64,000 bases of DNA from Sphingomonas kyeonggiensis (GTDB lineage Bacteria; Pseudomonadota; Alphaproteobacteria; Sphingomonadales; Sphingomonadaceae), in NCBI RefSeq assembly GCF_014204495.1, contig NZ_JACHLN010000002.1, positions 372,001 to 436,000 on the forward strand, read 5' to 3'. Shown piece by piece: positions 11,713 to 57,454 of this stretch. The position numbers and the translations under genes were made by a program. The notes under the pieces were generated by a model, which had not been told where the DNA came from, ran no database searches, and was given only the letters and a program-made list of their open reading frames with translations. Position 1 is the first letter of the stretch; every line of letters starts with the position of its first letter.

Positions 11713-12486
11713 TCAAAGGCCGAGTGCCTTTTTTGCGACCTTCTCCACCTCGGGATCGAGCTCGGGCGGGGTCATCGGCACATGCTTCTCCAGCGCATCG
11801 GCGATCGCGGTGAGCGCAGCGATGCGGGCGGACTTCTTGTCGTTGCCGTCGATCACGATCCAGGGCGCGTGCTCGGTATTGGTGCGCTTGAACATCTCGT
11901 GCATCGCGTCGAGATATTCGGGGCGCTTCGCCCGATTGCGATAATCGTCGAGCCCGGTCTTCCAGCGCTTCCAGGGGTGTTCGAGCCGGTCCTTGAGCCG
12001 CTTGTCCTGGGTCTTCTGGGTGACGTGGACGAAGACCTTCACCAGGGTGGTGCCGGCCGTGACCTGCTGGGCCTCGAAATCGTTGATCTCGTCATAGCCG
12101 CGTTCCCACTCGGCCTTGCCGGCAAAGCCCTCGACCCGCTCGACCAGGACGCGACCGTACCAGGTACGGTCGAAGATCGCGATATTGTGCTGGGCGGGCA
12201 GCCGGCGCCAGAAGCGCCAGAGGAAATGATGGGCAAGCTCTTCCTGGGTGGGCGCGGAGATCGGCCAGACCTCGTAATAGCGCGGGTCCCATTCGGCGGT
12301 GAGGCGCTGGATGATGCCGCCCTTCCCCGCCGCGTCCCACCCCTCGAACGCGACGATCGCGCGGCGGCGGTGGACGATGTGCGCGTAGTGGATGTGGCTC
12401 AGCCGTTTCTGGACCTTGGCCAGCGCCTTGTCATAATCGCCGTGGAGCTTCTCGCCCTTCTCATAGTCCGACAGATCGATCGTCAC
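11713..12486 (-). CDS. ppk2: Polyphosphate kinase 2 family protein
   Basis: 257 residues, GTG start. P-loop kinase that transfers phosphate between polyphosphate and nucleotides. Walker A is FEGWDAAGKGG, Walker B is AIFDRTWYGR, and the lid segment is RYYEVWPISAPTQEE, all signatures of PPK2. Single-domain length suggests class I (nucleoside diphosphate) or class III; sequence inspection cannot decide. It adds to PPK1, PPX and the Pho-boxed phosphate transporter elsewhere in the window. Confidence 0.93.
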   Translation of the reverse strand: MTIDLSDYEKGEKLHGDYDKALAKVQKRLSHIHYAHIVHRRRAIVAFEGWDAAGKGGIIQRLTAEWDPRYYEVWPISAPTQEELAHHFLWRFWRRLPAQHNIAIFDRTWYGRVLVERVEGFAGKAEWERGYDEINDFEAQQVTAGTTLVKVFVHVTQKTQDKRLKDRLEHPWKRWKTGLDDYRNRAKRPEYLDAMHEMFKRTNTEHAPWIVIDGNDKKSARIAALTAIADALEKHVPMTPPELDPEVEKVAKKALGL

Positions 12487-14576: not shown

Positions 14577-15593
14577 TTACTTCGAAGTCGCGATCCGATC
14601 GGCATCGACGCGGTTCTGGAGCATCTTGCCCGCCTCGGCATCGGCGGCGCTGCGCAGCGTCGTCTCGGCGATGGCGGCCAGCGCTTCCTCGGTAAGGAAG
14701 GCCTGGTGGCCGGTGACCAGCACGTTGGGGAAGGTCAGCAGGCGCTGGAACAGGTCGTCGGAGACGATCTCGTTCGACAGGTCCTCGAAGAACAAATCGG
14801 CTTCCTGCTCATAGACGTCGAGCGCGACGGCGCCGATCTTGCGGGACTTGAGCCCCTCGATCAGCGCGGCGGTGTCGATCAGTGCGCCGCGGCTGGTGTT
14901 GACGATCATCAGGCCGTCACGGGCGGCGTCGATCGTCGCGGTATCGATCAGGTGGCGGGTGTCCGGGGTGAGCGGGCAATGGAGGGTGATGATCTCGGCG
15001 GTGCGCAGCAGTTCGTCGCGGGGGACGTAGCGGACGCCGATGCGCTCCAGCTCGGGATCGGGATAGAGGTCCGCGGCCAGCACCTCGCAGCCAAAGCCGA
15101 GCCTGAGGCCGCGGGCGACCAGCGCGCCGATCTTGCCGGTGCCGATCACGCCGACGGTGCGCCCGTGGAGATTGCGGCCGATCAGGCCGTCGAGCGCGAA
15201 ATTATTGTCGCGCACCCGCGCCCAGGCGCGCGGGATATGGCGATCTACCGCAAGCAGGAGCCCGATGGTGAACTCGGCAACGGCATGGGGGGAATAGGCG
15301 GGCACGCGGACCACGGCGATCCCGAGCCGATGCGCGGCGGCGAGATCGACATTGTTGAACCCGGCACAGCGTAGCGCGACCAGCCGCGTCCCCTGCCCGG
15401 CCAGCACTTCCAGCACCTCGGCATCGACGACATCGTTGACGAAGACGCACACCGCCTGGTGCCCGGCGGCGAGCGATGCGGTGGCGGGCTCGAGGCGGGG
15501 CTCGAGGAAATGCAGGTCATGGCCGAATGCCGCGTTCGCTTCGGTCAGGAAGCGGCGGTCATAGGACTTGGTGTTGAACACCGCGATACGCAT
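14577..15593 (-). CDS. D-2-hydroxyacid dehydrogenase (D-lactate dehydrogenase type)
   Basis: 338 residues from the ATG at 15593. MRIAVFNTKSYDRRFL is the typical start of fermentative D-lactate dehydrogenase LdhA. The NAD-binding motif is GVIGTGKIGALVARG, the substrate Arg lies in NTSRGALID, and the Glu/His catalytic dyad lies in the C-terminal third (VLVTGHQAFLTEEAL). It reduces pyruvate or a related 2-ketoacid with NADH. The upstream in-frame extension to 15680 looks non-coding. Confidence 0.9.
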   Translation of the reverse strand: MRIAVFNTKSYDRRFLTEANAAFGHDLHFLEPRLEPATASLAAGHQAVCVFVNDVVDAEVLEVLAGQGTRLVALRCAGFNNVDLAAAHRLGIAVVRVPAYSPHAVAEFTIGLLLAVDRHIPRAWARVRDNNFALDGLIGRNLHGRTVGVIGTGKIGALVARGLRLGFGCEVLAADLYPDPELERIGVRYVPRDELLRTAEIITLHCPLTPDTRHLIDTATIDAARDGLMIVNTSRGALIDTAALIEGLKSRKIGAVALDVYEQEADLFFEDLSNEIVSDDLFQRLLTFPNVLVTGHQAFLTEEALAAIAETTLRSAADAEAGKMLQNRVDADRIATSK

Positions 15594-23687: not shown

Positions 23688-25187
23688 CTAGACCTCGAGG
23701 ATCGGCTCCTTGCCGAAGGCAGCGGCCAACGCCTTGTGGCGCTTCTCGACCGCTTCACCGTAAAGCGCCTCGTCCTCGGGATCCAGGCAGAGCGCCAGCG
23801 TCTCCTCGTCGATGTGCAGTTCCGAGCGCTTGATCGGCGCGGCGACGCCGCCCGACAGGCGCTGGCCGAGGCGGATCGCCAGGCCCCAGAGCTTGGCGCG
23901 CCACAGCGTGTCGTCATCGGCGAGCTGGGGCAGCGGTGCCGGCGTGTCGAGCCCGCCGCCGAGCGCGGTGTAGAGCGCCTGGCCGAGCGCGGCGCGGCCC
24001 ATCGAGTCGATCGCCACCCAATTGCCGTGCAGCGCGGCATCAAGGCCGCGTTCGGCGCGGAATTCGGGGTTGGCGTGCCAGCCGACATCGACGAGCTGGC
24101 AGGCGGCATGGCGCAGCCGGGCCATCTCGGGCGGCTCTCCGGCGAAGAGCGGGGCGATCCACTGGTCGAGCAGGTCGCCATGCTCGGGGAAACGGCCGAG
24201 CCGTTCGCCTTCGTCGCGGGTAGCGGCGATCAGCGGGTCCTGCTGGCGCAACTCGGGCGACAGGCGCTGGTAGAGCAGCCCCTCGCGCAGACCATAGGCT
24301 GAGACGATGGTCCCCTTGCTGCCAAGCTGCTTGAGCACCTGGGACAGGAGCAGAGCGGCGTCCTCCAGCGAGCCGGCGCGGGCGCTGGAGAGATTCGGAA
24401 TTGCCTTGAGGTCCGCCTTGGGCATGGCCGCAATCGAGCTCGCAAGCTCGCCAATTCGCGCCACGGCCATCGGGTATTGGTGCGCGATCGGCAGCGGATA
24501 ATGCTTAAGATGCATGTCGAGCCGGGCCAGGCTGCGCCACGAGCCGCCGACCAGATAGAAGGGCAGCCCCTTCCCCCGCCCCTTCCACCCGGCATCGCCG
24601 AGCAGCTTCGCGACCTTGCGCTCCAGCGCGGCCTTGCCCTCCGCGCGGATCGCCCCGAGGCGCAGGACGCCGAGCGGGAAGGACACGCGATCGGTAACCG
24701 TGCCGGCAACGACCCGGACCAGCTCGAGCGAGCCGCCACCGAGATCGCCGACGATGCCGTCCGCCTCGGGAATGCCCGAGAGCACGCCGAGGCCGGCGGC
24801 CATCGCCTCTTCCTCGCCCGACAGCGTCTCGACCTCGAGCCCGAGGTTGCGCGCCGTCTCGATCAGCTCGCGTCCGTTGGAAGCATCGCGGACGGCGGCG
24901 GTGGCGACGGTGCGAAGCTCGCCGACCTGCATCTCGCGGGCGAGCGCCGAGAAGCGCGACAACGCGCCGCGGGCGGCCGCCATGCTGGCGGGCTCGATCG
25001 CCCCGGTCTCGGCCAGGCCGCGGCCGAGGCCGGCCATCACCTTCTCGTTGAACAGCGTCGCCGGCAGGCGCGCGGAGCCCTGATAGACCACGAGGCGCAC
25101 CGAGTTGGAGCCGATATCGATGATCGCGGTACGATCGTCGACAACGGATGGCTTCGTGCGCGCCTTGCGGAACGGCAATGTCGTCAT
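23688..25187 (-). CDS. ppx: Exopolyphosphatase / pppGpp phosphohydrolase
   Basis: 499 residues. Ppx/GppA phosphatase with the ASKHA start AIIDIGSNSVRLVVYQG, GEEEAMAAGLG (catalytic Glu region) and VGDLGGGSLELV. A C-terminal HD-like extension follows. It hydrolyses inorganic polyphosphate from the end and may also act on pppGpp. The ATG overlaps the ppk1 stop by 4 bases, so synthesis and breakdown enzymes are made from one message. Confidence 0.95.
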   Translation of the reverse strand: MTTLPFRKARTKPSVVDDRTAIIDIGSNSVRLVVYQGSARLPATLFNEKVMAGLGRGLAETGAIEPASMAAARGALSRFSALAREMQVGELRTVATAAVRDASNGRELIETARNLGLEVETLSGEEEAMAAGLGVLSGIPEADGIVGDLGGGSLELVRVVAGTVTDRVSFPLGVLRLGAIRAEGKAALERKVAKLLGDAGWKGRGKGLPFYLVGGSWRSLARLDMHLKHYPLPIAHQYPMAVARIGELASSIAAMPKADLKAIPNLSSARAGSLEDAALLLSQVLKQLGSKGTIVSAYGLREGLLYQRLSPELRQQDPLIAATRDEGERLGRFPEHGDLLDQWIAPLFAGEPPEMARLRHAACQLVDVGWHANPEFRAERGLDAALHGNWVAIDSMGRAALGQALYTALGGGLDTPAPLPQLADDDTLWRAKLWGLAIRLGQRLSGGVAAPIKRSELHIDEETLALCLDPEDEALYGEAVEKRHKALAAAFGKEPILEV

Positions 25188-27325
25188 GCCTTGGCCCTGG
25201 TCCTCGCCTTGCGCTTCAGCTGGAGCTTGGGAACTGGCTTGCGCGCGTCGAGCGCGGCGCCGCGGCCCGAAAGCGATGGGTTGGTCATGAAATAGCGGTG
25301 CAGGTTGAAGCTCGCATCCTCGCCGGGGGCGATGCGGGTATAGTGCCCGTCGCTGCGGAGCACCCAGCTCTGCTCATTGTCCAGCAGGTTCGCCACCATC
25401 ACCTGATCGAGCACCTGATCGTGCACCGTCTTGTTGAGGATCGGGAGCATGAATTCCACCCGGCGATCGAAGTTGCGCTGCATCCAGTCGGCCGAGGAGA
25501 TGTAGACCTTGGCGCCGTCATTGGGCAGGGCCTTGCCGTTGCCGAACGCCCAGATGCGGCTGTGCTCGAGGAAGCGGCCGACGATCGACTTGACCTTGAT
25601 GTTCTCGGACATGCCGGGAACGCCGGGGCGCAGGCAGCAGATGCCGCGGATCACCAGCTCGATCTCCACTCCGGCATTGCTCGCCTCGTAGAGCTTCTCG
25701 ATCACCGCGGGATCGACCAGCGAGTTCATCTTGGCCCAGAGCTGGCCCGGCCGGCCGGCGCGGGCATGGGCGATCTCGTCATCGATCAGCCCGACCAGCC
25801 GGTTGCGCAGGTCGCGCGGGGAGATGCCGATCAGCTCCAGCCCGTGCGGCTCCACATAGCCGGTGACATAGTTGAAGATCTGCGCGGCATCGCGGCCCAC
25901 CCGCGGATCGGCGGTGAAGAAGCTGATGTCGGTGTAGATGCGGGCCGTGATCGGGTGGTAGTTGCCGGTGCCGAAGTGGCAATAGGTGCGATAGCCATTG
26001 CCCTCGCGGCGCACGACCATCGAGACCTTGGCATGGGTCTTCCAGTCGATGAAGCCATAGACGACCTGGACGCCCGCCCGCTCCAGCGCCGTCGCCCAAT
26101 AGAGGTTCTGCTCCTCGTCGAAGCGGGCCTTGAGCTCGACCACCGCGGTGACCGACTTGCCGGCCTCGGCCGCGGCGATCAGCGCGTTGATGACGGCGGG
26201 CTGCTTGCCGGCGCGGTAGAGCGTCTGCTTGATCGCCACCACGTCGGGATCCGACGCCGCCTGCTGCAGGAACGAGATGACGACGTCGAAGCTCTCATAG
26301 GGGTGGTGGACGACGATGTCCTTGGCCTTGATCGCCGCGAAGCAGTCGCCGCCATATTCGCGGATCCGCTCGGGGAAGCGCGGCGTATAGGGAGTGAACT
26401 TCAGGTCGGGCCGGTCCTCGTCGACCAGCATCGCCAGGTCGCCGATGCCGAGGAAGCCACCGGTCTCGGTGAGCAGCGCTTCGCTGCCGCCAAGTTCCTC
26501 CTTGAGCACCGCCTCCAGCTCGGGCGAGATGCTCTCCTCCATCTCGAGACGGATCACCCGGCCGCGGCGGCGGCGCTTGATCGCCGAGCGGAAGGTCAGG
26601 ACCAGGTCCTCGGCCTCTTCCTCGATCTCGATGTCGCTGTCGCGCAGCACGCGGAAGGCGGCGGCGCCGAGCGAGGTGTAGCCCGGGAAGAGCAGGTGCG
26701 AGAAATGCTTGAGCACAGCCTCGACCGCGACATAGCGCGCCGGGTTGCCGGGAAGCCGGACGAAGCGCTTGATCGCGGTGGGCAGCAGGACCAGCTCGCG
26801 CACCGGCTCGCGATCCGACTTGCGGACGAGATCGAAGATCACGCTCGATCCCTGGTTCGGGATGAACGGGAACGGGTGGGCCGGGTCGAGCGCCTGGGGC
26901 GTCAGGATCGGGAAGATCTGGTCGCGGAAATGGGTTTCCAGCCAGGCCTCGGTCTCGCCTTCGATCGCATTGGCATCGAGGACATGGATATCGGTCTCGA
27001 GCAGATCGGCGCGGATGCTCGTCCACACCGCCTGCTGGTTGTCGGCCAGCGCCTCGGCCTCGGCCGAGATGGCATCGAGCTGCTGGCCGGGCGTCAGGCC
27101 GTCGACCGAGCGGGTCTCCACCTTCTGCAGCTGCTGGCCCATCAGGCCGGCGACGCGGACCATGAAGAATTCGTCGAAGTTCGAGCCGGAGATCGACAGG
27201 AAGCGCAGCCGCTCGAGCAGCGGATGGGCGGGGTTGGTCGCTTCTTCCATCACCCGGCGGTTGAAGGCCAGCCAGCTCAGCTCGCGATTGAAGTAACGTA
27301 CGGAAGTGTCCGGCAATTCGGTCAT
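25184..27325 (-). CDS. ppk1: Polyphosphate kinase 1
   Basis: 713 residues from the ATG at 27325 (MTELPDTSVRYFNRELSWLAF). It makes polyphosphate from ATP. Of the two conserved histidines, H431 in DWKTHAKV corresponds to the phosphorylated residue of the E. coli enzyme, and H450 in YCHFGTGNYH lies 19 residues on, the same spacing as in E. coli. Phospholipase-D-like domains form the C-terminal half. Operon order is DUF2066-like, hdaA, ppk1, ppx. Confidence 0.97.
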   Translation of the reverse strand: MTELPDTSVRYFNRELSWLAFNRRVMEEATNPAHPLLERLRFLSISGSNFDEFFMVRVAGLMGQQLQKVETRSVDGLTPGQQLDAISAEAEALADNQQAVWTSIRADLLETDIHVLDANAIEGETEAWLETHFRDQIFPILTPQALDPAHPFPFIPNQGSSVIFDLVRKSDREPVRELVLLPTAIKRFVRLPGNPARYVAVEAVLKHFSHLLFPGYTSLGAAAFRVLRDSDIEIEEEAEDLVLTFRSAIKRRRRGRVIRLEMEESISPELEAVLKEELGGSEALLTETGGFLGIGDLAMLVDEDRPDLKFTPYTPRFPERIREYGGDCFAAIKAKDIVVHHPYESFDVVISFLQQAASDPDVVAIKQTLYRAGKQPAVINALIAAAEAGKSVTAVVELKARFDEEQNLYWATALERAGVQVVYGFIDWKTHAKVSMVVRREGNGYRTYCHFGTGNYHPITARIYTDISFFTADPRVGRDAAQIFNYVTGYVEPHGLELIGISPRDLRNRLVGLIDDEIAHARAGRPGQLWAKMNSLVDPAVIEKLYEASNAGVEIELVIRGICCLRPGVPGMSENIKVKSIVGRFLEHSRIWAFGNGKALPNDGAKVYISSADWMQRNFDRRVEFMLPILNKTVHDQVLDQVMVANLLDNEQSWVLRSDGHYTRIAPGEDASFNLHRYFMTNPSLSGRGAALDARKPVPKLQLKRKARTRAKA

Positions 27326-27371
27326 CGAAACCCCTTCATCGGCACGCTGTTTCGCTGCCTTGACCATGCCG

Positions 27372-55332: not shown

Positions 55333-56976
55333 TTAGAGCCCCAGCACCTTCACGCCGTTGAGCATCGCCCAGTAGAGGCAGCCCGAGAGCGCCATCGCCG
55401 CAGGCAGGGTGAGCAGCCAGGCGAGCGCCAGGTTGCGCACCGTGCGGCCCTGCAGGCCCGCGCCGCTTGCCACCGATGCGCCGGCGACGCCCGAGGACAG
55501 GATGTGCGTGGTCGACACCGGCAGGCCGAAGCGATCGGCCGCCAGGATCGTGCCGGCCGCGACCAGCTCGGCCGAGGCGCCCATCGCATAGGTCATGTGC
55601 TGCTTGCCGATCTTCTCGCCGACGGTGACGACGATCCGCTTCCAGCCGATCATCGTGCCGAGGCCGAGCGCGAGCGCGACGACGATCTTCACCCAGAGCG
55701 GGATGAAGCGCGTGCCGGCTTCCAGCTTCTTCTGATAGTCGCCCAGCGCGGTCAGCTCCTCGGCCTTGTAGCCCTCGGGCTTCTTGGTCGCGAGCTTGGT
55801 GGTGTCGAGCACCAGGTACATGTCGTTGCGGACATTGCCGGTGGCTTCCGCCGGCACCTTGCTCAGCGCGCCATAGCCCTGGACGCGGCCGGTAAGGTCC
55901 TTCGACAGGCCCTCGAGCGCGGCGAACACCTCGGGCGTCTCGGCCTTGCGCTGCTGGAGCGCGGTGGTGAGCACGGTGCGGGCCTGGGCCGGCGCCATGT
56001 CCGGCAGGCCGCCGCTGCGCGCGTCGAACACGGCCTCGGCGATATTGGCGGTCTGGACATAGGCGGGCGTGGCGCTCGCCGACTGGGTGCGGTTGAGCGC
56101 ATAGGCGGTGGGCGCACAGCCGATCAGGATCAGCATGATCAGGCCCATGCCCTTCTGGCCGTCGTTCGAGCCGTGGCTGAACGAGACCGCGGTGCAGGTG
56201 AAGATCAGCGCGCTGCGGATGCCGATCGGCGGCGCGGTGTTCGGCATCGGCGAGGTGTAGAGCTTCTGGTTGCGCAGGAAGACGCGCATCACCAGCAGCA
56301 GCGCGATCGCGGCGAAGAAGCCGATCAGCGGCGCCATCCACAGGCCGGTGAGGATCTTGGTCGCCTGGCTCCAGTCGACACCCGCGGTGCCGCCGCGCGA
56401 GCCGGCGTTGATCAGCTGGTTGGCGAAGCCGACGCCGAGCACCGAGCCGATCAGCGTGTGCGACGACGAGTTGGGCAGGCCGATATACCAGGTGCCGAGG
56501 TTCCACAGCACTGCCGCGAGCAGCAGCGCGAAGATCATCGCGAACCCGCCCGAGGATCCCACGTTGAGGATCAGCTCGACCGGCAGCAGCGTGATGATCG
56601 AATAGGCGACCGCGCCCGACGACAGCATCACGCCCAGGAAGTTCCAGAAGCCCGACCAGACGACGGCGAAATGGGCAGGCATCGAATTGGTGTAGATCAC
56701 CGTCGCGACGGCGTTGGCGGTATCGTGGAAGCCGTTCACGAACTCGAAGCCGAGCGCGATCAGCAGCGCCAGGCCGAGGAAGAGGAACACGCCGGTGGCC
56801 AGCTCCTCCCCTACCCCCTTGGTGTCGGTCAAAACGCTCCAGCCGGCAAAGGCCAGCCCGCCCACCATGATCGCCGCGAACAGCAATTTGGCGAGGGGAT
56901 GCGTCTTGTAGTCGAATCGGGGGCCGGGCTGCGGTTGGTCAACCGGTGCGGCTTGGTCCAGAGCGAGTGATGCCAT
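55333..56976 (-). CDS. pit: Inorganic phosphate transporter, PiT family
   Basis: 547 residues. Two PiT signatures: GFHDTANAVATVIYTNSMPA near residue 85 and SHGSNDGQKGMGLIML near residue 270. About 10-12 membrane segments, with a hydrophilic middle loop (about 310-420) that is longer than in E. coli PitA. Proton- or cation-coupled low-affinity phosphate uptake. A Pho box sits 27 bases before the start, so expression is expected to respond to phosphate starvation, which is less usual for pit. Confidence 0.93.
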   Translation of the reverse strand: MASLALDQAAPVDQPQPGPRFDYKTHPLAKLLFAAIMVGGLAFAGWSVLTDTKGVGEELATGVFLFLGLALLIALGFEFVNGFHDTANAVATVIYTNSMPAHFAVVWSGFWNFLGVMLSSGAVAYSIITLLPVELILNVGSSGGFAMIFALLLAAVLWNLGTWYIGLPNSSSHTLIGSVLGVGFANQLINAGSRGGTAGVDWSQATKILTGLWMAPLIGFFAAIALLLVMRVFLRNQKLYTSPMPNTAPPIGIRSALIFTCTAVSFSHGSNDGQKGMGLIMLILIGCAPTAYALNRTQSASATPAYVQTANIAEAVFDARSGGLPDMAPAQARTVLTTALQQRKAETPEVFAALEGLSKDLTGRVQGYGALSKVPAEATGNVRNDMYLVLDTTKLATKKPEGYKAEELTALGDYQKKLEAGTRFIPLWVKIVVALALGLGTMIGWKRIVVTVGEKIGKQHMTYAMGASAELVAAGTILAADRFGLPVSTTHILSSGVAGASVASGAGLQGRTVRNLALAWLLTLPAAMALSGCLYWAMLNGVKVLGL

Positions 56977-57002
56977 GATGTGCGCGCCTCTGGCCGGAGG
57001 GT

Positions 57003-57031
57003 GTGACAGCCATATGACAAACGCATGACAG
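57003..57031 (-). promoter_or_regulatory. Pho box (three direct repeats) upstream of pit
   Basis: On the minus strand three heptamers, CTGTCAT, TTGTCAT and CTGTCAC, spaced exactly 11 bases apart (57025-57031, 57014-57020, 57003-57009). This is the established PhoB-binding pattern (CTGTCAT-N4 direct repeats). It ends 27 bases upstream of the pit ATG. Confidence 0.85.
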
Positions 57032-57184: not shown

Positions 57185-57454
57185 ATGAAGGAACTTTCAT
57201 TGCTCGCCGCCTGTGCAACGCTTGCCCTGATGGGCTCCGCGATGCTTCCCTCTTCGCAAGCCATGGCGCAGACCAATCCGAACTGCCTGCCTGAGCTGAC
57301 CCCGGACGCGCCGCCGCCGAACCCCGAGGATAATTGCGACGAGGTCGGCAATCCCGAGGAAGGCGGCACCGACAATCCGCCGCCCCCGCCGCCGATTCCG
57401 CCCAGTGCCTTCGCACGGGTCGACGCGGTCGCGCTCCGCGAGATCTACGTCTAG
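57185..57454 (+). CDS. Small secreted Pro-rich protein (89 residues)
   Basis: ATG at 57185 behind AAGGAGA. Signal peptide cut near AMAQ (residue 29). The mature part has two cysteines, an acidic Pro/Asn/Glu-rich middle and a run of six prolines. Function unknown. Divergent from pit, with the Pho box in the spacer but over 150 bases away. Confidence 0.6.
   Translation: MKELSLLAACATLALMGSAMLPSSQAMAQTNPNCLPELTPDAPPPNPEDNCDEVGNPEEGGTDNPPPPPPIPPSAFARVDAVALREIYV

Follow-up and report, generated by a model that had tools for sequence, protein, structure and literature searches.

A conserved Pho box upstream of a long PiT phosphate carrier gene in Sphingomonas and its probable use in activation by PhoB

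Introduction

Uptake of phosphate in bacteria is usually divided between two systems, Pst for phosphate hunger and PiT for phosphate plenty. The textbook Pho box is formed of TGTCA repeats at 11-base spacing. An earlier note on the DNA described here started from the view that PiT carriers are mostly constitutive. This view agrees with the passages cited for Agrobacterium Pit (PMC12501420) and for Pseudomonas aeruginosa pitA (PMC12506140), both of which are called constitutive there, but omits two regulated cases. In Sinorhizobium meliloti, the pit gene is described in the cited passages as repressed in phosphate stress (PMC8829014, PMC3131613). In Streptomyces coelicolor, according to the part of the source cited, pitH2 carries Pho repeats and is induced by PhoP in low phosphate, whereas pap-pitH1 is without a Pho box and not regulated by phosphate (PMC7866108). 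For E. coli PitA expressed in Caulobacter, a KM of 1.9 uM is given in the cited passage (PMC11208175), so that low phosphate is within the working range of a PiT. Among the literature matches listed, a coverage that leaves out most subscription journals, no PhoB-activated PiT was reported for sphingomonads, nor were PhoB binding at such a gene or a rise of its transcript in low phosphate.

Results

The Pho box upstream of the long pit gene

The DNA under study is a stretch of 64,000 nucleotides of a Sphingomonas genome (hereafter the window), corresponding to positions 372001-436000 of contig C2. It carries on the minus strand a gene for a long-type PiT carrier, the product of which belongs to the PF01384 (PHO4) family, with 286.3 bits against a curated cut-off of 33.7 over residues 81-531. 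Its nearest named match, 94% identical, is from Sphingomonas kyeonggiensis, and, of the 121 Sphingomonas genomes sampled, 90 gave homologues at E<=1e-100. Upstream of this gene, the minus strand between 57031 and 57003 reads CTGTCAT GCGT TTGTCAT ATGG CTGTCAC, that is, three CTGTCAT-like heptamers exactly 11 bases apart, with the letters and the spacing that the earlier note had read. The last heptamer is separated by 26 bases from the pit ATG (first base at 56976); the 27 bases given before hold if the count begins at the A that closes the last TGTCA, but not from the end of the heptamer. The elements of the promoter region are as follows.

55333..56976, minus strand: pit, long-type PiT phosphate carrier, 547 aa (PF01384, PHO4)
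57025..57031, minus strand: Pho-box repeat 1, CTGTCAT, the distal one, lacking conservation across the genus
57014..57020, minus strand: Pho-box repeat 2, TTGTCAT, conserved core
57003..57009, minus strand: Pho-box repeat 3, CTGTCAC, conserved core, occupying the -35 place
56987..56992, minus strand: -10-like hexamer CAGAGG, 11 bases past TGTCA, with the invariant A at 56991
56979..56981, minus strand: predicted transcription start, placed from the position of the -10-like hexamer, giving a leader of 3-5 bases

The pit promoter thus has at least two CTGTCAT-like repeats at 11 bases, with the box at the -35 place and the putative -10 eleven bases downstream. The order in the E. coli phoA promoter is TGTCA, N11, TATAGT, and the invariant A of pit corresponds to the second base of that -10. 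The pit hexamer itself is non-canonical, and T is absent at both -12 and -7 in nearly all species.

Search patterns were drawn up after the box was seen. Within the window, the three-repeat pattern with up to three mismatches gave a single match, at 0 mismatches, against 0.01 expected; the two-repeat pattern with up to two mismatches gave two matches, both being the pit box, against 2.09 expected, which is not above chance. The genome-wide scan that the earlier note had proposed was run with box patterns, and the only exact CTGTCAYN5TGTCAY in the 4.96-Mb genome was the pit box. With one mismatch, seven matches were found, two of them being the pit box, and the reversed pattern gave one. Downstream of the other one-mismatch sites (L002, L003, L004, L005 and L007), no phosphate gene was recognised by eye, without a family scan.

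As had been pointed out before, three polyphosphate genes lie in the same window.

11713-12486, minus strand: ppk2
23688-25187, minus strand: ppx
25184-27367, minus strand: ppk1

Their closeness to pit carries little weight, since they are about 30-45 kb away and the pit-promoter model described below finds just two sites in the window at E<=1, one at pit and the other within a coding region at 14906.

Conservation of the box and its spacing among relatives

Long pit genes gave 94 rows in Sphingomonas, of which 90 were used (the second copy of G105 and of G145, and both halves in G146, were omitted), and four rows from other genera were added to make a set of 94 upstream regions. TGTCA-N6-TGTCA with at least nine of ten letters was present in the sense direction in 74 of the 94 and on the opposite strand in one. 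At the level of at least eight of ten letters, the sense count rose to 87, seven regions remaining below it, but 37 of the 94 regions also had such a repeat on the opposite strand; what counts as evidence is therefore how high the score is, where the repeat stands and how it is spaced. The observed repeat score was reached by 91 of 1880 letter shuffles, and in 76 of the 87 regions the box ended 23-28 bases before the ATG, as counted from the last TGTCA.

For alignment, 86 regions with at least eight of ten letters within 80 bases were reduced to 83 distinct ones, and 73 were kept for a box end 20-29 bases before the ATG, without selection on position +12 past the box. The conserved core is of two repeats, not three; a distal third repeat (at least four of the five TGTCA letters) was found in 13 of the 73, against a background of about 0.9%. 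Position +12 past the box was A in all 73 distinct regions, +15 was G in 88%, about 95% had C or G at +11 and likewise at +16, and no fixed base was seen at +13 or +14. When the same regions were aligned on the ATG, this signal dissolved, with no base from -17 to -9 above 60%, indicating that the -10-like element belongs to the box. The spacing from box to A is fixed and the distance from box to ATG ranges from 23 to 28, the ATG being located at +23, +24, +25, +26, +27 and +28 in 14, 11, 9, 18, 17 and 4 of the 73 regions, respectively.

More distant long pits showed one clear repeat only, with TGTCA-N11-TA in all eight and TAnnG in the place of the -10-like element in seven, at 32-51 bases from box to ATG; three Methylobacterium pits carry box-N11-TAATCC. 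In a set of 52 boxes collected as unrelated, A was found at +12 in 31 and the full [C/G]AnnG in 2, as compared with 60 of the 73 pit regions, although this set is unfit as a control because many of its members are pit boxes or Pho-like sites of Pseudomonas or of short-PiT loci. Strong Pho-box-like repeats, N11 and then hexamers such as AATGAT, AATTAT or GATGAT were observed in Pseudomonas loci such as L172, L178 and L195 (at about 1630-1710), 1.2-1.4 kb upstream of a long pit. Closer to the Pseudomonas pit, roughly 30-50 bases ahead of its start, a conserved motif resembling CTGTAACATTTNGCAAYGATCATG occurs, for example in L164 and L170; it may be a degenerate Pho box.

The pit-promoter model elsewhere in the genome and at pstS

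A model was built from 34-base pit-promoter cores (66 distinct). With 150 of 1345 candidates scored, it found four sites in the own genome at E<=10.

Hit 1: pit, 16.5 bits, E 0.087
Hit 2: L003, where no phosphate gene was recognised, 16.2 bits
Hit 3: before the gene for a PhoD phosphatase, 13.4-13.5 bits
Hit 4: a coding-region site, window position 14906, 12.7 bits

Within these scored candidates, the lead of pit over the second hit was narrow (16.5 against 16.2 bits), and the own pstS was not among the four hits. The phosphatase gene of the third hit was assigned by PF09423 (264 bits). In an unfiltered scan, model positions 1-34 were matched before this gene, and positions 1-33 before the own pstS at 12.4 bits.

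The study of pstS covered 21 of 113 loci, the model scan being performed on the 20 loci of relatives, with the own locus apart. A match at E<=0.5 was obtained in 15 of the 20, and five were without one. The pstS promoters of three close relatives matched end to end or nearly so (20.5-24.2 bits), and those of L303 and L306 over nearly the whole model; as for the other matches, one reached position 30, that of L297 covered the 3' part only, and eight covered the box part only. Several of these box-only loci have a third repeat in place of the -10. Position +12 was A in 17 of 17 pstS promoters; since a third repeat overlaps +12 in many of them, this A gives independent support mainly in the three close relatives. 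The own pstS promoter also admits a reading as a box of three repeats. The own pstS (L044, about 4950) may start at ATT (GGGAGACGAGAC ATT TTC), and a lipoprotein-like signal comes next.

PhoB, PhoR and Pst in this genome and in relatives

The genes phoR, pstS, pstC, pstA, pstB, phoU and phoB are arranged in one run at about 11.7-18.9 kb of contig C4. At the head of the run is phoR, a histidine kinase gene (L044, 3675-4877), and phoB (C4:18170-18838) was assigned by TIGR02154 at 339 bits. The presence of pst genes and phoB, which the earlier note had wished to see checked, is thereby confirmed. That note had placed pit under PhoB as a starvation transporter used perhaps in place of, or beside, PstSCAB. 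Control by PhoB gains good support from the conservation and the activation-type geometry of the box. The complete pst cluster leaves the long pit to act beside Pst, and its use as a substitute was rejected for this genome.

PstB was found in 113 of 121 Sphingomonas genomes. Of the others, three (G152, G120 and G135) are explained by assembly gaps, their pst genes lying where contigs end, and G065 was put in neither class. Four genomes (G161, G086, G143 and G070) were counted as pst-less. In these, phoR, phoU and phoB stand side by side without intervening pst genes (L253/L258, L251/L260, L249 and L254, respectively), and no PstC or PstB homologue scored above the curated cut-off elsewhere in the genome; G161 and G086 are 99% complete, and G143 and G070 are fragmented drafts of 90% and 85%. 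Pst appears to have been lost from these four genomes, with the sensor system retained. The long pit is present in only one of the four, G161, where it is boxed (L115), and replacement of pst by the long pit as a trend was rejected on this count.

The second, DUF47-linked PiT

A second PiT, of 337 residues, follows a DUF47 gene (PF01865) on contig C3. Using cut-offs of 1e-100 for the long and 1e-60 for the short PiT, both were found in 77 of the 121 genomes, the long one only in 13, the short one only in 24, and neither in 7. From the 101 genomes with a short PiT, 30 loci were analysed, 20 of them by the model scan. In the 150 bases before DUF47, a repeat with at least eight of ten letters was found in none of the 30 loci; the operon start lies further upstream. 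The operon opens with a NUDIX-like gene (so named from its sequence), about 1.2 kb before the short pit. The NUDIX-like gene (L045 at 2379, contig C3; L261-L290) seems to start with ATT or ATC in 30 of 30 loci (23 ATT, 7 ATC), and 17 of the 30, the own locus included, have no in-frame upstream ATG, GTG or TTG. The own protein begins IRQIAALPYR.

Before the NUDIX-like gene, the pattern TTG[C/A]-N16-19-NGTAAY, a constitutive-looking promoter by its letters, was detected in 13 of 30 loci, against 1 of 1500 shuffles. A repeat with at least eight of ten letters was present in 12 of the 30, eleven at one place and the twelfth (L267) apart. A at +12 was seen in none of the eleven but in L267, and the second half of the repeat was GTAA[C/T] in 10 of the 11, 7 of the 11 having the promoter pattern as well. 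Within 95 bases of the NUDIX start, repeats at this level showed no excess of sense over antisense (12 against 10 of 30 loci), and those with at least nine of ten letters were five in sense and one in antisense. The pit model matched these promoters with its box part only, in 5 of 20 loci. These observations altogether indicate that the second PiT lacks the promoter layout of the long pit. The arrangement resembles that of S. meliloti orfA-pit and gives a weak hint that PhoB may repress the DUF47-PiT operon; the sense-antisense recount (12 against 10) lowers the odds of an opposite wiring of both PiTs to PhoB.

Discussion

A candidate mode of pit regulation

Given the box, its conservation and fixed spacing, and the presence of phoR, pst and phoB, activation of the long pit by PhoB under phosphate starvation is the best reading of this promoter, and we regard it as probable. 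Upon starvation, PhoR would phosphorylate PhoB, and dimers of PhoB~P would bind the two core repeats, and the third as well in this genome, at the usual -35 place. PhoB~P would then recruit RNA polymerase to the weak -10 located 11 bases downstream, CAGAGG in this genome and [C/G]A-N-N-G in general form. Transcription is predicted to begin some 23 bases beyond the box; with 0-5 bases of leader ahead of the ATG, the pit mRNA would be nearly leaderless. The long PiT would serve as a starvation-induced second importer of phosphate beside PstSCAB, and the DUF47-linked PiT as the carrier for plentiful phosphate.

The serious rival is that PhoB represses pit. A constitutive promoter would then be located further upstream, and PhoB bound beside the start codon would block it, as reported for S. 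meliloti orfA-pit. In the cited passages, S. meliloti pit drops under phosphate stress (PMC8829014) and the orfA-pit box also lies just before the translation start (PMC3131613), and the Sphingomonas box is likewise near the ATG. Against this stands the invariant spacing from box to A while the ATG lies anywhere from 23 to 28 bases away, and the same composite precedes the phosphatase gene and, in near relatives, pstS. The 33 bases upstream of the core contain no conserved -35- or -10-like columns, although a promoter at variable distance would escape this alignment. In addition, the S. meliloti carrier is of the type with a partner gene, orfA, unlike the long Sphingomonas pit. Repression is in our judgement improbable.

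The same fixed spacing bears on the nature of CAGAGG, which could be taken for a Shine-Dalgarno sequence with the promoter elsewhere, as AGAGG, AAAGG and GAAGG, some 10 bases ahead of the ATG, do look like ribosome-binding sequences. The element is fixed relative to the box and not to the ATG, variants such as CAACGC, GACTGC and CACCGG do not fit a ribosome site, and the distant clade keeps TAnnG in seven of eight at 32-51 bases from box to ATG; this reading was rejected on spacing and is given a very small chance. The gene next upstream of pit is divergent (57185-57454, plus strand) and encodes a proline-rich, secreted-looking small protein of 89 residues without a Pfam match, and not a DUF47 partner of orfA type. 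The box is situated in the intergenic region common to both genes and might serve the small one, which, however, is found in 3 of the 33 related loci searched, all of close relatives and two probably of the same genome, while in the majority of the 94 regions the box keeps its position ahead of pit. The small gene was rejected as the target for want of wide conservation, and a chance repeat was rejected on the uniqueness of the box in the genome, the rarity of three repeats, and the conservation and fixed place in relatives; we give hardly any credence to either.

If activation of the long pit by PhoB holds across Sphingomonas, this lineage would have drawn a member of the PiT family into its starvation response; of the alphaproteobacterial PiTs in the cited passages, that of Agrobacterium is constitutive (PMC12501420) and that of S. 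meliloti is repressed when phosphate is short. A wider scheme can also be drawn, which we hold to be doubtful as a whole. PhoB would turn the long PiT on, from a -10 that lacks the usual Ts and is silent without PhoB, to give a leaderless mRNA, and would turn the DUF47-linked PiT off; in the pst-less relatives with phoR-phoU-phoB, a boxed PiT could be the starvation importer, PhoR sensing phosphate without Pst. With such genomes, what PhoR senses in the absence of Pst becomes directly testable.

Comparison with known systems

The pit promoter resembles that of E. coli phoA in having two TGTCA repeats at 11-base spacing and, 11 bases past the second of them, a -10 hexamer. It differs from phoA, with its TATAGT and leader of normal length, in having [C/G]AnnG and, as predicted, almost no leader. 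S. meliloti orfA-pit, as far as the cited passages go, shares an alphaproteobacterial PiT with a Pho box near the translation start; it has a partner gene in front and is repressed when phosphate is low, whereas the long Sphingomonas pit has the geometry of an activated promoter. Streptomyces coelicolor, in the part of the source cited, likewise has two PiTs, a solitary one with Pho repeats and a partnered one without a Pho box. The differences are an actinobacterial PhoP, another promoter and a measured rise in Streptomyces, as against a predicted PhoB layout of the Gram-negative type with a near-leaderless start in Sphingomonas. The pitH2-pitH1 pair is a precedent for the induction of one PiT through Pho next to another that has a partner gene and no box.
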